From Phascolarctobacterium sp. (GTDB lineage Bacteria > Bacillota > Negativicutes > Acidaminococcales > Acidaminococcaceae): a stretch of DNA of 64,000 bases. Positions 18,523 through 59,548 of the stretch are shown here, piece by piece. Below the pieces are notes generated by a model. It was not told the DNA's origin, made no database searches, and was given only the letters and a program-made list of their open reading frames with translations. How positions within the stretch are numbered: the first letter of the stretch is position 1; each line of letters opens with the position of its first letter. The position numbers were made by a program, and so were the translations under genes. The stretch is from assembly GCF_030531065.1 (NCBI RefSeq), contig NZ_JAUNOQ010000006.1:1-64000 (forward strand), in the 5' to 3' direction.

Positions 18523-18914
18523 TTGCAGAAAAAAATTTCGACTGCAAAATATCATATTCAAATGATATTGGGCTGCTATCCTACGATAGCATTGCATGGT
18601 TCGCTTACAAATGAAGAACTTTGTCTCTTAAAGCATTTTTTGCCAAGCTTTTTTGTGCGAGCAAAAAAGCGTAAGTTTGTCAAACTTTTTAAAAGTTTGC
18701 CCCTTTCTTGCATCTTCTTTCGGGGACGAAAGAAGATGATTAAAAAAGCACTACCATGCGGTAGCATTGCTTCACAAAAAACCACGTCTACCATCTTTTC
18801 CGTTTCTGCGTTTTTCAAAGCGCCCTTCCATTTTCTAAATAAAAAAACCACCTCTATGCAGAACGTATAGCGCCGCAAGCCCTAAAAAGTAAATATTCGC
18901 AGAACGTAAAAGGC

Positions 18915-18943
18915 TTGCGGGGGGGGTACATATGTGCTATAAT
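18915..18943 (+). promoter_or_regulatory. Adhesin promoter with a G8 tract across the -35/spacer boundary
   Basis: TTGCGG (18915-18920), a 17-base spacer and a perfect extended -10 (TGC then TATAAT, 18938-18943) precede the adhesin ATG by about 65 bases. A run of eight G (18919-18926) covers the end of the -35 and the start of the spacer. Length change in such a tract would alter spacer length. Confidence 0.6.
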
Positions 18944-19009: not shown

Positions 19010-22000
19010 ATGAATAAGATTTTTAAAGTAATTTGGAGTAAAGCGCGAGGGTGCTATGTAGTAGCGTCCGAATTCGCTAAGAGCCATACCAAAAGCGGCA
19101 GGGCGGTCAAGGCCGTAGCCGTGGCGGCAGCGGCGCTGACCCTAGGGATGAACGGGCTGGCGTTGGCGGCGGGTACTATTGGAGATTTGCCTAAAGGCGA
19201 TGGGCAAGGTATAGCTATTGGCGAAGGTAGCCATGCTGAGCATGATAGTGGGGAAAAGGAGGACAACGTAGCAGGGCATGGCAAAGATATTGCTATAGGA
19301 AGCAATGCTCAAGCTTTAGGCGAAGCGTGGACAGATGATGGAATAACATATGAAGGCAATAGCATCGCCATAGGTTCCGAAGCGTTGGCTCAAAAATACA
19401 GCAGCGTAGCTATAGGAAGTGGAACAAAAAGCATGGGCGTGTATAGCACGGCGTTAGGTTTCGATTCGCAGGCGCTTGGAAATAGAAGCGTAGCTATGGG
19501 CGTTGCTAGTTTCGCTATAGGCGACCATTCCATAGCTTTTGGCGAAAATGCAGCTACAGCCGATGTTCAATACAACGCTGATGGTAGTATAAAAGTGGAC
19601 GAAAACGGAAATCCTGAATACAATACTGCTGGCTTTAAAGCTGTCGCTATTGGTGAAAACTCCGCCGCATATGGAGATAGCAGTATAGCAATTGGCGACG
19701 GAACCAAAAGCACGAACGAGAGGGGTACGGCGTTAGGCAGTAATTCGCGAGCGCTTGGAAGCAGAAGCGTGGTTATGGGCGTTTCAAGTTATGCTATAGG
19801 CGATCGTTCTATAGCTATTGGTGAAAATGCGGCAACAGCCGAAGTTAGCTACAACCCAGATGGCAGTATTGAAGTGGATGAAAATGGGAATCCTAAATAT
19901 AATACAGATAAGAAAGGTTTTAAAGCTGTCGCTATTGGCGAAGCTGCTGTAGCATATGGCACTAGTAGCATAGCGATGGGCGACGGTGCCAAAGCGTATG
20001 CTCAATATAGTACTGCTTCCGGCATTCAGGCGAGAGCTTCAGGAAATAATAGCACGGCGATAGGCCATTATTCTATAGCTAACTCAACAAACGATACGGC
20101 TGTGGGCAGTAATGCGGAAGCGCTAGGTTCCTATGGTACTGCTGTGGGTAAAAGCGCACATGCAGTATGTAATAACAGTACTGCGGTTGGAGTTTCAGCG
20201 AGGGCCGCCAGCGGTTATAGCGTAGCTATAGGCGATACCAGCGTCGCTGCTGGAGATAATTCTTTAGCTTTAGGCTCAAATGCAAGCACAGGCACAGTTG
20301 TGCGTGGTGATGATGATAAAATCATAATTGATCAGCATAATGGAAAGGTTACAGTTAATACTTATGCTAAAAACGCGGTAACTATCGGGGCTTATTCTTC
20401 GGCCGAAAAGGATAATAGTACAGCTATAGGCTATAAGGCAATGGCAAAGGGCCTATATAGTACAGTCGCAGGCGACAATGCAACAGCAGAAGGAGATTAT
20501 AGTTCTGCTTTCGGTAATGAGGCACACTCAATCGGGGCTTATAGCATAGCTGTGGGTTCTAAATCGACAGCAAACGATAAGTCGAGCGTAGCTTTAGGTT
20601 ATCAAGCTGACGCTATTGGAGAAGACAATGTAGCTTTAGGTTCTTACTCTGATAATGCATATTTTGATACCGAAGGGTACAGGGGCTACAGCAATACCAC
20701 CGTATATAAGGATGGGAATGTCGCTGTTTTTGGTACGTCCGACGGTAGTTTAACTAAATTGAGTTTGAAAGTAGGCGACTTTGCCGGGTGGGGCAGTCAA
20801 GTCTATGGTACGGTCAGTGTGGGTTATACTGATGATAAAGGCGGCATTCATACCCGTACCATCACCAACGTCGCCGCAGGTATGATTGCTGAGGGTAGCA
20901 CGGACGCTATCAACGGTAGCCAGCTATACGCGGTGGCCAAAGGGTTGCAGGATCAAATTGATAAAGCCAATAACGACGACCATTACCATACGGTCAATGG
21001 AGAAAAACCAAAAACTGACGCCAGCGATAGTACAACCGGTGATGCTAGTGGTAATGCAAGTTCTGGAAATAACAGTAACAATAATAATGCAGGAAGTACG
21101 GTAACTGCTGGCGGCGCTACAAATACAGGCGTAGCTGATGCTGGGTCTGACGAAAGCACCGATACTTCTAAGGGGCATGAGCCTACGGGTGATGTTCCCG
21201 AGTTAAATGAAGGTTATATAGGCAACAAGGGTAATTTGTCTATCGAGTATGCTACCGATAAAGATGGCAAGAAATACTACGACATTAGCATGAAGGATAA
21301 TCTTGACCTTAGCAATACCGGCAGTATTAAGTTTGGCGATACAAATAATACCTATATTGACGGTGATGAAATCAAGATTGGCGATACGCATATCACCGAC
21401 AAAAGCGTAAAAGTTGGCGATACCTTCAACATCGATAACAGTAAAAAAGAAGTTACCGTCGGCAAAAATGTTAATATCGATATGGGCGATAATATTATTC
21501 ACAACGTAGCTCCCGGCGTTGCCGATACCGACGCCGTGAACGTGAGCCAGCTGAAAGAACTGAACCAAAATATCGAAAACAACTCCGTACAAATCAACAA
21601 GCTCAAAGGCCGCATCGATAAGGTAGGCGCAGGCGCCGCCGCGCTGGCTGCGCTGCACCCGCTGGATTTCGACCCGGACGACAAATTCTACCTGAGCGCG
21701 GGCTACGGCCATTACCGCGGCGAAAACGCCGTGGCTGTGGGCGCGTTCTACCAGCCTAACGACGATACGCTGTTCAGCGTGTCCAGCACCGTGGGCAACG
21801 ACGACGATATGATTAACGCCGGTATTACCTGGCGCTTTGGGCAGCAGAGCCATCAGTCACGCTCCAAGAAGGCGATGGCGAAAGAAATTATCGAGCTGCG
21901 TACCGAGGTGGCGGAACTGAAGGCCATGGTCTACAGCCTGACGGGTTACGGCCTGGATTTGGAAAAGAGCAAGCTGTTCCCCGACACGCCGGAAAACCAC

Positions 22001-22267
22001 TGGGCTTACGATTACGTGGCGGTAGTAGCTGGCAACGGTATTCTGGAGGGCTACCCCAACGGCCAGTTCGACGGCAGCAGGCCGATGACGCGCTACGAGA
22101 TGGCGGCTGTGGTGTACCGCCTGCTGCAAAAGGGCGTGCAGGTGGACAACCGCATGATTCAGGAATTTGCGCCGGAGCTGGCGCGCGTAAGGGTGGACAC
22201 CTTGACGCATTACAACGACGGCACACCGCATATCCAGCGCGTGCGCGTGATCAAGGGACGCGGCTAA
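19010..22267 (+). CDS. Trimeric autotransporter adhesin (YadA/Hia type) with C-terminal SLH domain
   Basis: This 1085-residue surface adhesin is exported by Sec and anchors its own trimeric barrel. The N-terminus has an ESPR-like extension (MNKIFKVIWSKARGCYVVASE) and a hydrophobic signal ending near LALAA (about 54). Residues ~60-570 are YadA-head repeats of the form AIG..S.A.G. A neck or stalk, an Asn/Gly/Ser-rich linker (~665-730) and a coiled coil follow. The membrane anchor (about 860-944) ends in the last strand NAGITWRFG. Unusually, another 141 residues follow: a coiled coil (~955-978) and an SLH domain (990-1042, with FPDTPENHW, GYPNGQFDG and MTRYEMA). The head DNA is less GC-rich than the anchor. 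ATG 19010 follows GGAGGG. Confidence 0.93.
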   Translation: MNKIFKVIWSKARGCYVVASEFAKSHTKSGRAVKAVAVAAAALTLGMNGLALAAGTIGDLPKGDGQGIAIGEGSHAEHDSGEKEDNVAGHGKDIAIGSNAQALGEAWTDDGITYEGNSIAIGSEALAQKYSSVAIGSGTKSMGVYSTALGFDSQALGNRSVAMGVASFAIGDHSIAFGENAATADVQYNADGSIKVDENGNPEYNTAGFKAVAIGENSAAYGDSSIAIGDGTKSTNERGTALGSNSRALGSRSVVMGVSSYAIGDRSIAIGENAATAEVSYNPDGSIEVDENGNPKYNTDKKGFKAVAIGEAAVAYGTSSIAMGDGAKAYAQYSTASGIQARASGNNSTAIGHYSIANSTNDTAVGSNAEALGSYGTAVGKSAHAVCNNSTAVGVSARAASGYSVAIGDTSVAAGDNSLALGSNASTGTVVRGDDDKIIIDQHNGKVTVNTYAKNAVTIGAYSSAEKDNSTAIGYKAMAKGLYSTVAGDNATAEGDYSSAFGNEAHSIGAYSIAVGSKSTANDKSSVALGYQADAIGEDNVALGSYSDNAYFDTEGYRGYSNTTVYKDGNVAVFGTSDGSLTKLSLKVGDFAGWGSQVYGTVSVGYTDDKGGIHTRTITNVAAGMIAEGSTDAINGSQLYAVAKGLQDQIDKANNDDHYHTVNGEKPKTDASDSTTGDASGNASSGNNSNNNNAGSTVTAGGATNTGVADAGSDESTDTSKGHEPTGDVPELNEGYIGNKGNLSIEYATDKDGKKYYDISMKDNLDLSNTGSIKFGDTNNTYIDGDEIKIGDTHITDKSVKVGDTFNIDNSKKEVTVGKNVNIDMGDNIIHNVAPGVADTDAVNVSQLKELNQNIENNSVQINKLKGRIDKVGAGAAALAALHPLDFDPDDKFYLSAGYGHYRGENAVAVGAFYQPNDDTLFSVSSTVGNDDDMINAGITWRFGQQSHQSRSKKAMAKEIIELRTEVAELKAMVYSLTGYGLDLEKSKLFPDTPENHWAYDYVAVVAGNGILEGYPNGQFDGSRPMTRYEMAAVVYRLLQKGVQVDNRMIQEFAPELARVRVDTLTHYNDGTPHIQRVRVIKGRG

Positions 22268-35411: not shown

Positions 35412-35429
35412 TTTGCTAATGACAAACCA

Positions 35430-35600
35430 TTAAGATAGAGGCGCGGAAAGCATCAGTAGTCTGTGGAGCGGGAGCTGGGAAGCAGGCGAAAGGGCTAACG
35501 CCGAAGTGCAATGGCAGCCGTGCCGTTGTGCTGGGCCGTCAGTGAAAGCTGCCGGACTGTCGCTGCAAAAGCAGCGGAGGGCTATCTCAGCTATGGTATG
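35430..35600 (+). ncRNA. Lysine riboswitch (L box)
   Basis: Conserved L-box pieces appear in order: TAGAGGCGCGG, AGTAGTCTGTGGA, GGCGAAAGGG, CGCCGAAGTG, CTGGGCCGTCAGTGAAAGC, GACTGTCG and GGAGGGCTATCTC. Lysine binding to the aptamer should favour the downstream terminator and shut off the operon. The downstream genes (aspartate to dihydrodipicolinate steps) are classic targets. Confidence 0.92.
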
Positions 35601-52084: not shown

Positions 52085-52330
52085 GCTAACGCGATGATAA
52101 AGACAGTAGCCTGCGGCGCGGAGCAAGCGAGCTGGGGATGGTGTGAGCCCGGCCGTCAGCAAAACAGGTGAAAATCACTTTGGAGCGGATGGGACGAAGG
52201 CAGTAGTTCCATACGGTTGCGCCCGATAAAGCGCACACGAGTGGCGGCGGCTTGGGTCGCTGTCATGAGGGTGGTACCACGGAGTATTTATTGGCTTCGT
52301 CCCTTGTTAGCGGGACGGAGCTTTTTTATT
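52085..52330 (+). ncRNA. T-box leader with Ile (ATC) specifier
   Basis: The conserved T-box sequence AGGGTGGTACCACGG lies at 52268-52282. Stem I ends with GGTGAAAATCACTTTGGAGCG, where ATC (52174-52176) occupies the specifier position and matches isoleucine. The terminator follows: CGTCCC..GGGACG with T6 (about 52298-52328). Uncharged tRNA-Ile should stabilise the antiterminator and switch on ileS. Confidence 0.92.
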
Positions 52331-57887: not shown

Positions 57888-58001
57888 GCTGCATTTTTAG
57901 CTTCAGCGGCGGTGGGGCTGCGCTTAAATTTTAGAAATTTGTCAAATGAGGAATGCCAGCACGGTAGTGCTGCAACGCAAAAGTGCTCGATGCACTTTTG
58001 C

Positions 58002-58029
58002 TTGACTGGGGGGGACAAGGGGCTATAAT
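58002..58029 (+). promoter_or_regulatory. Polysaccharide locus promoter with a G7 tract in the spacer
   Basis: TTGACT (58002-58007), a 16-base spacer starting with seven G (58008-58014), and a perfect TATAAT (58024-58029). The transcript would start about 100 bases before the sugar transferase gene. Confidence 0.7.
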
Positions 58030-58135: not shown

Positions 58136-59548
58136 TTGTTTAATCGATATTACGGAGCTGTGTTAATGCTGCTGTTCGTGTTGATGGATTATGCAGCGTT
58201 GATTGCAGCAGAACAAGGCGCTTTCATGCTACGCAATCTGATTCTGCGTTCGCAAAATCTGTATCTTTCCTGGCTCAACTTTTGGATAGTATTTCCCAGT
58301 CTGTTCCTGCTCTTTATTCATCTGGGACAGCTCTACAGCCGCCGTATGCCCTTCTACAAGGAAGTGGAAAAGCTGTTCCACGCCTGCTGTTATGGAACGC
58401 TGGCCGTAATTTTTGTGCTTTATGTGGCGCGCATTGCCGCCACCACCAGCAGGATGTTCGTGGGCTTATTCGGCATACTGGCTTTTATTTTGCTGGCTAT
58501 TTGCCGCTATTTGGTTAAACGCTTTTTGCTGCATAAACAGTTACTACAAGTACCAATTGTAATTATTGGCGCGGGCAAAACGGCGGAGCTGCTGGTTAAG
58601 GGCATCGTCGGCGACGCTGGCTTAGGCTACAAAATCGTGGGTCTGTTGGAGGATAACCGCGTACAGCCGGGCATTTTGGAAAAATACCCTGTGCTGGGGC
58701 GCTTTGCCGACGCGGAAAGAGTTATCAAAGAAACAGGCGTGAAGCGCGTCTTTATCGCCGCTCCGGGGCTGGCAGAACGCAAATTGGGAATGCTGATTTA
58801 CCGTATTCAACCGCTGGTAAAAAACATCGGCGTTATTCCTAACTTAGTAGGCGTGCCTACAGGAGCGGTGGAAGTAGAGAGCATGTTCAACGAGCGCCTG
58901 GTGCTGCTGCGTTTGAAGAATAATCTGGCGCGGCCGCTGAACCGCTGGCTGAAAACAATTTTCGATTACACGCTGACGATTGTTGGCACGATTTTGATTT
59001 CTCCGGTTTTACTGTTTATCGCCGCCTGGATTTATAAGGATTCGCCGGGGCCGGTGATTTTTAAACACACGCGCGTCGGGAAGAACGGCAAGCCGTTCCC
59101 CTGCTATAAATTCCGCAGTATGTGCGTGGACGCCAAGGAAAAGCTGGCGGAACTGCTGGCTAACGACCCGGCGGCGCGGGCAGAGTGGGAAAAAGACTTT
59201 AAGCTGAAAAACGACCCGCGCATTACCAAAAGCGGCGCGTTCTTGCGCAAGACCAGCCTGGACGAGCTGCCGCAGATTTTTAACGTGCTGCGCGGCGAGA
59301 TGAGCTTAGTCGGGCCCAGACCGATTATTGCGGAAGAACTGCCGCGCTACGGCGAGTATGTGGGCGATTATCTGATGGTGAAGCCGGGCATAACCGGTAT
59401 GTGGCAGGTCAGCGGTCGCAGCGACACGACGTATAACGAGCGCGTGCAGTTGGACAGCTGGTATGTGCGCAACTGGAGCGTGTGGCTGGACGTGATGTTG
59501 TTGTGGCGGACTGGGAAAGCAGTCATTGTTAGAAAAGGTGCATATTAA
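58136..59548 (+). CDS. Polyprenyl-phosphate sugar-1-phosphate transferase (WbaP/WcaJ type)
   Basis: This enzyme starts a surface polysaccharide by moving a sugar-1-phosphate to undecaprenyl phosphate. The 470-residue protein has four to five N-terminal membrane helices and a Rossmann-like middle (VPIVIIGAGKTAELLVKGIV). The C-terminal bacterial sugar transferase domain has DSPGPVIFKHTRVG, PCYKFRSM, TSLDELPQIFNVLRGEMSLV with GPRP, and KPGITGMWQVSGRSD. The start is TTG 58136 behind GGGGAG. It is the first gene of the locus and is still GC-rich, unlike the genes that follow. Confidence 0.93.
   Translation: MFNRYYGAVLMLLFVLMDYAALIAAEQGAFMLRNLILRSQNLYLSWLNFWIVFPSLFLLFIHLGQLYSRRMPFYKEVEKLFHACCYGTLAVIFVLYVARIAATTSRMFVGLFGILAFILLAICRYLVKRFLLHKQLLQVPIVIIGAGKTAELLVKGIVGDAGLGYKIVGLLEDNRVQPGILEKYPVLGRFADAERVIKETGVKRVFIAAPGLAERKLGMLIYRIQPLVKNIGVIPNLVGVPTGAVEVESMFNERLVLLRLKNNLARPLNRWLKTIFDYTLTIVGTILISPVLLFIAAWIYKDSPGPVIFKHTRVGKNGKPFPCYKFRSMCVDAKEKLAELLANDPAARAEWEKDFKLKNDPRITKSGAFLRKTSLDELPQIFNVLRGEMSLVGPRPIIAEELPRYGEYVGDYLMVKPGITGMWQVSGRSDTTYNERVQLDSWYVRNWSVWLDVMLLWRTGKAVIVRKGAY

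Follow-up and report, generated by a model that had tools for sequence, protein, structure and literature searches.

The eight-G tract at positions 18919-18926 of a Phascolarctobacterium sp. contig most probably forms the variable spacer of a sigma-70-type promoter belonging to a genome-wide family, in which surface genes would be switched independently by the number of Gs; we give this reading a probability of about two in three. The window, by which we mean the whole analysed stretch of 64,000 nucleotides, holds two such tracts. Both were noted at the outset, and both belong to this promoter family, which has an upstream inverted repeat (dyad) as an additional part.

All features of the adhesin promoter lie on the forward strand. 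Its -35 hexamer, TTGCGG (18915-18920), was read from the sequence and aligned with 36 other promoters; the G8 tract (18919-18926), assigned from the sequence and the family alignment, puts it in the 17-bp spacer state; and the extended -10, TGC-TATAAT (18935-18943, with TATAAT at 18938-18943), has the TGnTATAAT form conserved in related genera. The gene that follows (19010-22267, ATG at 19010) encodes a trimeric autotransporter adhesin of 1085 aa with an ESPR, a YadA head, stalk and anchor, and a C-terminal SLH domain. The sequence-only reading had placed the eight Gs across the boundary between the -35 and the spacer, ahead of an extended TATAAT serving this gene; the position proved exact, and the first two Gs are part of the hexamer itself. 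The dyad (18873-18920) consists of the arm CCGCAAGCC (18873-18881), a 30-nt loop and the arm GGCTTGCGG (18912-18920), the latter containing the -35, and its arms covary across promoters. Because TTGCGG matches the -35 weakly, the promoter was not picked up by a generic consensus scan. No syntenic relative of the adhesin locus was found among the genomes searched. In the trimeric autotransporters at 19010-22267, L093 and L083, the SLH domain follows the YadA anchor on its C-terminal side, an unusual order by which the anchor could be attached to the cell wall of a diderm Firmicute.

The second tract, a G7 at 58008-58014 on the same strand, represents the 16-bp spacer state and lies between a -35, TTGACT (58002-58007), and a -10, TATAAT (58024-58029). 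The gene behind it (58136-59548) encodes a capsule/exopolysaccharide initiating sugar transferase (PF02397 with CoA_binding_3), one of six paralogues located behind poly-G promoters. Two hairpins precede the promoter: hairpin A, CAGCAC-GGTA-GTGCTG (57957-57972), and hairpin B, GCAAAAGTGC-TCGAT-GCACTTTTGC (57977-58001), a class 1 dyad (described below) immediately 5' of the -35. This promoter scored 11/12 in the generic consensus scan.

It had been remarked by eye that these two were the only G runs of seven or more in the window, and that both sat in promoters of surface loci. Both remarks held: they are the sole G or C runs of at least seven on either strand, one in the adhesin promoter and one in that of the capsule sugar transferase, and runs of exactly six are absent from the window. 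An excess of G-runs by chance was ruled out, since the observed count of three (overlapping) G7 matches is below the 7.8 expected in dinucleotide shuffles; their placement alone is special.

When the own genome of the window (Acidaminococcaceae; 2.37 Mb in 27 contigs) was searched for seven Gs, 71 overlapping matches were obtained, corresponding to 53 distinct tracts as judged by flanking sequence. Thirty-two of these tracts fall within a TTG...TAnnnT frame spaced at 15-18 bp, compared to 0.7% of random positions (binomial p ~1e-55), and at least 37 poly-G promoters are present once G6 and weaker -35 sites are counted in. As in porA-type promoters, the homopolymer is located between the -35 and the -10 and alone sets the length of the spacer: with three TTTGAC/TTTTAC (plus 10) copies re-registered to a TTGACA-like -35, the spacer equals the number of Gs plus nine in 37/37, the 9 bp of non-G spacer keeping the same register. 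Because this portion is fixed, each G gained or lost would shift the spacer by one base. Thirty promoters are in the G7/16-bp state, six (the window's adhesin promoter among them) in the G8/17-bp state and one in the G6/15-bp state. Where the run sits depends on the sequence class (TTGACY-G7-ACAAG-N4, TTGTC-G7-ACAAG-N5 and TTGT-G7-TACAAG-N5), and none of about 20 own-genome family members found with the spacer left free had an interrupted tract.

For comparison, ordinary promoters without G-runs were collected by scanning 663 kb of own-genome sequence, in which some stretches overlapped and duplicate sites were removed. At a match of at least 11/12 these peak at 17 bp (35 promoters, versus 5 at 16 bp and 8 at 18 bp), in contrast to the 30 poly-G promoters at 16 bp and 6 at 17 bp (Fisher p 3e-10 for the counts at 16 and 17 bp). 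Because ordinary promoters peak at 17 bp, spacing is best in the G8 copies, with the G7 copies a single slip away: G7 is one base below the optimum, and G8 reaches it. From this we infer stronger expression of a gene in the G8 state.

The genes driven are predominantly surface genes. Of the 35 promoters for which a downstream gene was available, 32 precede surface, secreted or capsule products, again as in porA-type promoters, which drive surface-exposed products. The 35 genes encode classical autotransporters (PF03797; 14), capsule-initiating sugar transferases (PF02397; 6), YadA-type adhesins (4), signal-peptide or lipoprotein-like proteins (3), SLH porins (2) and one each of a TonB-dependent receptor, a ShlB-type transporter, a sulfatase (behind the G6 copy), a Type III restriction-modification methyltransferase, a dynamin/Sel1 protein and a GNAT protein. 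Phase-variable regulators classically include Type III mod genes, and the methyltransferase gene with its G7 spacer promoter (C4:174963, locus L144) is a possible candidate for a phase-variable epigenetic regulator. An example of a phase-variable Type III mod gene is modM of Moraxella (PMC6902483).

We hypothesize that slipped-strand gain or loss of one G would change the distance between the -35 and the -10 by one base. G8, carried by the window's adhesin gene and five others, would represent the high-expression state, G7 a lower one and G6 a state near off. With the surface genes each switching independently, the adhesins, autotransporters and capsules of a population would form a combinatorial set. 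That slippage takes place within one culture and affects transcription would be expected by analogy with porA, tp0126 and uspA1.

Other species of the window's genus have the same layout, as do further genera of the family (g5, g6, g9, g14 and g18), reversed-pattern controls giving zero or near zero. Across 200 genomes of the class, scattered copies occurred in at least five other families and the control was without a match, and a pattern search of a named genome collection gave two matches, a Phascolarctobacterium MAG and a contig labelled Christensenella. Among the family matches listed outside the own genome with runs of at least seven, the spacing was 16 bp in 67, 17 bp in 11, 18 bp in 2 and 19 bp in 2, and four apparent cases of 13-14 bp include minimal-match artefacts of the pattern. 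Ten listed cases retained 16 bp despite longer runs (eight with G8, two with G9); in these, therefore, adjacent bases had turned to G with the spacing kept. ACAAG follows the run in the own-genome and g9 promoters and is lost in genus g6, where only TTG, the G7 run and TGnTATAAT are retained. We also considered spread by phages and rejected it: one pattern matched no viral contig, and the other matched a single contig in which the spacer was not a pure G-run.

Tract lengths were then set side by side at orthologous loci, with synteny checked over 0.4-2.4 kb of flank. Between two species of g9 (G029 and G031), four of seven loci differ (8/7, 7/8, 7/8 and 7/8), two are equal and one has its tract interrupted by a substitution in G029. 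An autotransporter locus has tracts of 7, 9, 7 and 8 in four species of g6, and one locus in the window's genus (g1) has 9 in G004 versus 7 in G006. At five of the six g6 loci compared, all species compared have G7. Outside these five loci, the flanks of most pairs differ by few substitutions or none and lack indels, those of L207 and L224/L225 being more divergent. Length variation between genomes with conserved flanks, a further trait of the porA type, is thus seen at a subset of loci other than that of the window's adhesin (4/7 in g9, 1/6 in g6 and one in g1). The tract is the fastest-changing part of the promoter at some loci and is held at G7 at others; single length differences may be homopolymer assembly errors, and differences between species could accumulate slowly. 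In two species, the G9/G7 promoter of L224 and L225 is followed after ~800 bp by a gene whose product resembles an aminoacyl-tRNA synthetase.

The initial proposal of a phase-variable switch survives in part. The position of the tract in the spacer, the surface gene and the one-base spacer steps stand, and the proposal is strengthened by the 37 promoters and by the length differences between orthologues; hypermutability is not evident for every tract, most tracts being fixed at G7 and several having G7 in all species compared. An extended -10 usually reduces dependence on the -35, and the presence of this element in many copies counts against a switch acting through the spacer. So does the length of the tract, as G7 is short for a hypermutable one, and, given the longer runs that kept 16 bp, this length may simply be the selected spacing.

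In most poly-G promoters an inverted repeat is present, its 3' arm either overlapping the -35 or directly adjoining it. In class 1 it is a short hairpin with the loop TCRAY (57977-58001 in the window), often with a second hairpin 5' of it (57957-57972); in class 2, arms of 6-10 bp stand ~28-34 nt apart (18873-18881 with 18912-18920), and the loop of 28-34 nt carries a AGAAAAAGTAA-like sequence. In the own genome, for both classes, the arms match their own partners better than those of other promoters (0/5000 permutations reached the observed value), and a direct-repeat control was flat; pairing has therefore been kept by compensatory change. Arm covariation for class 1 in other genomes was not significant in a small set of seven. 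Some G7 promoters, e.g. L004, L006 and L016, have no clear dyad.

Several interpretations of the repeats could be set aside. Pairing of CTTG with CAAG across the tract as a conserved hairpin was ruled out by the loss of the downstream ACAAG in genus g6. An intrinsic terminator is not a general explanation, as copies including L220 and L221 have no T-run and a terminator scan did not list the hairpins. With inverted repeats only ~30 nt apart and the -35 inside the 3' arm, the arrangement is also a poor fit to a promoter segment inverted by a recombinase. At the promoters, an Rfam search of the window found no family match at gathering score, its only hits being a T-box leader (52085-52307, forward strand), a lysine riboswitch (35428-35592, forward strand) and three tRNAs. 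Candidate roles for the dyad are to stall replication as a hairpin next to the G-run, to cover the -35 in a supercoil-sensitive manner or to serve as a regulator site.

The last of these roles leads to an alternative that we regard as rather unlikely, though deserving of real weight: the G7 run and the dyad would serve a regulator common to the surface genes as a binding site or structural element, and this regulator would hold the length at seven, changes in length being tolerated noise. The predominance of G7 (30/37 promoters, with many orthologues fixed at this length) agrees with it, as do the covarying arms beside most tracts, the frequency of non-optimal spacers in regulator-dependent promoters and the joint action of a CRP homologue with poly-G tracts in Treponema (PMC7864442). 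However, the arms covary rather than keep one sequence as a normal operator would, g6 promoters persist with only TTG, G7 and TGnTATAAT after losing ACAAG, and length changes are commoner than interruptions among the matches seen. The Type III mod and surface genes also make up the usual phase-variable repertoire.

If, instead, the dyad acted as a hairpin (cruciform) sensitive to replication or supercoiling, promoting slippage or hiding the -35, tract length would be secondary to DNA structure. The self-complementarity kept by covariation in the own genome and the placement of the 3' arm at the -35 suit this idea, which the G7 promoters devoid of a clear dyad make quite improbable. We find it very improbable, and the least likely reading of all, that ordinary promoters were merely copied along with duplicated surface genes and the G-run inherited as a functionless passenger. 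Several promoters are indeed near-identical, and many lie at contig ends, like repeats; yet the genes downstream belong to unrelated families, several sequence classes share only TTG, the G-run, the spacing and the -10, and the tract stays pure while its flanks diverge and recurs in other genera and families.

Switching by G number, our preferred reading, would be of a known type. The anatomy appears to be that of porA and tp0126, an assignment well supported by position, spacing and target. In Neisseria meningitidis, porA, fetA and opc have a homopolymer in or at the promoter spacer, and the likeness is closest to porA and fetA, where the tract between the -35 and the -10 of an outer-membrane protein gene changes the spacer (PMC2791445). 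Unlike these three named genes, the present set comprises 37 promoters in one register, with tracts mostly of 7-8 and an upstream dyad, and is known from sequence alone. In Treponema pallidum, the spacer poly-G of tp0126 works best at 17 bp (PMC7864442). The tp0126 and tpr genes resemble our set in having poly-G in promoters of outer-membrane proteins, with the tp0126 tract in the spacer; Treponema differs in belonging to an unrelated phylum and having a smaller promoter set. We know of no common promoter module or dyad in the Treponema poly-G promoters. The uspA1 tract of Moraxella catarrhalis is situated in the leader and not in the spacer. Like the window's gene, uspA1 encodes a trimeric autotransporter adhesin with a poly-G tract 5' of it, and its transcription is graded from high to low (PMC7302503). 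That tract is described upstream of the reading frame, whereas ours lies between the -35 and the -10. In the invertible capsule promoters of Bacteroides, also a gut commensal, several capsule loci and surface genes each have their own switchable promoter of one design. One promoter design across capsule and surface genes is found here too; the switching in Bacteroides, however, is by DNA inversion through recombinases.

Judged by title and abstract, the papers searched on phase variation with Phascolarctobacterium, Negativicutes or Veillonella appear to describe no such promoters, nor is a poly-G spacer promoter family described there for this group, and we found in them no report of phase variation in Acidaminococcaceae. 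Tentatively, and at well below even odds, one may go further and picture a family-wide switch module (covarying dyad, -35, G7/G8 and often an extended -10), set one base short of optimal spacing, that exerts independent control over almost all of the surface repertoire in a diderm Firmicute. Such a set would rank among the largest of spacer-type phase-variable promoters known, and the dyad would be a dedicated component that sets the rate of slippage or the off state. Phascolarctobacterium and other Acidaminococcaceae commonly live in the gut as commensals; if the module switches, a strain would have very many surface states, with consequences for its resistance to phages, its recognition by the immune system, colonisation and the tracking of strains. 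The family also provides many parallel natural promoters that differ in one spacer base.

The non-promoter G tracts of the genome lie largely in surface-glycan genes. They comprise tracts in acyltransferase genes (C9:72769, G10; C20:89798, G9, called by the sequence start only; C10:79521, G8; C19:169986, G8), in glycosyltransferase genes (C5), in the gene of a YrbL-like protein (C21:202601, G8) and in an hsdS gene (C26:180325). These in-gene tracts support, short of proof, the use of G/C-run slippage in this organism. At C10:79521 (L173) the acyltransferase frame stops at the G8 and the remainder continues in another frame, both parts matching Acyl_transf_3, a split that resembles a contingency gene in the off state. 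The C10/G10 run in the acyltransferase gene at C9:72769-72778 (L172) lies ~14.8 kb downstream of the window's capsule promoter, ~8.8 kb past the window end; it probably belongs to the same locus and might possibly act as a translational switch on top of the promoter one.
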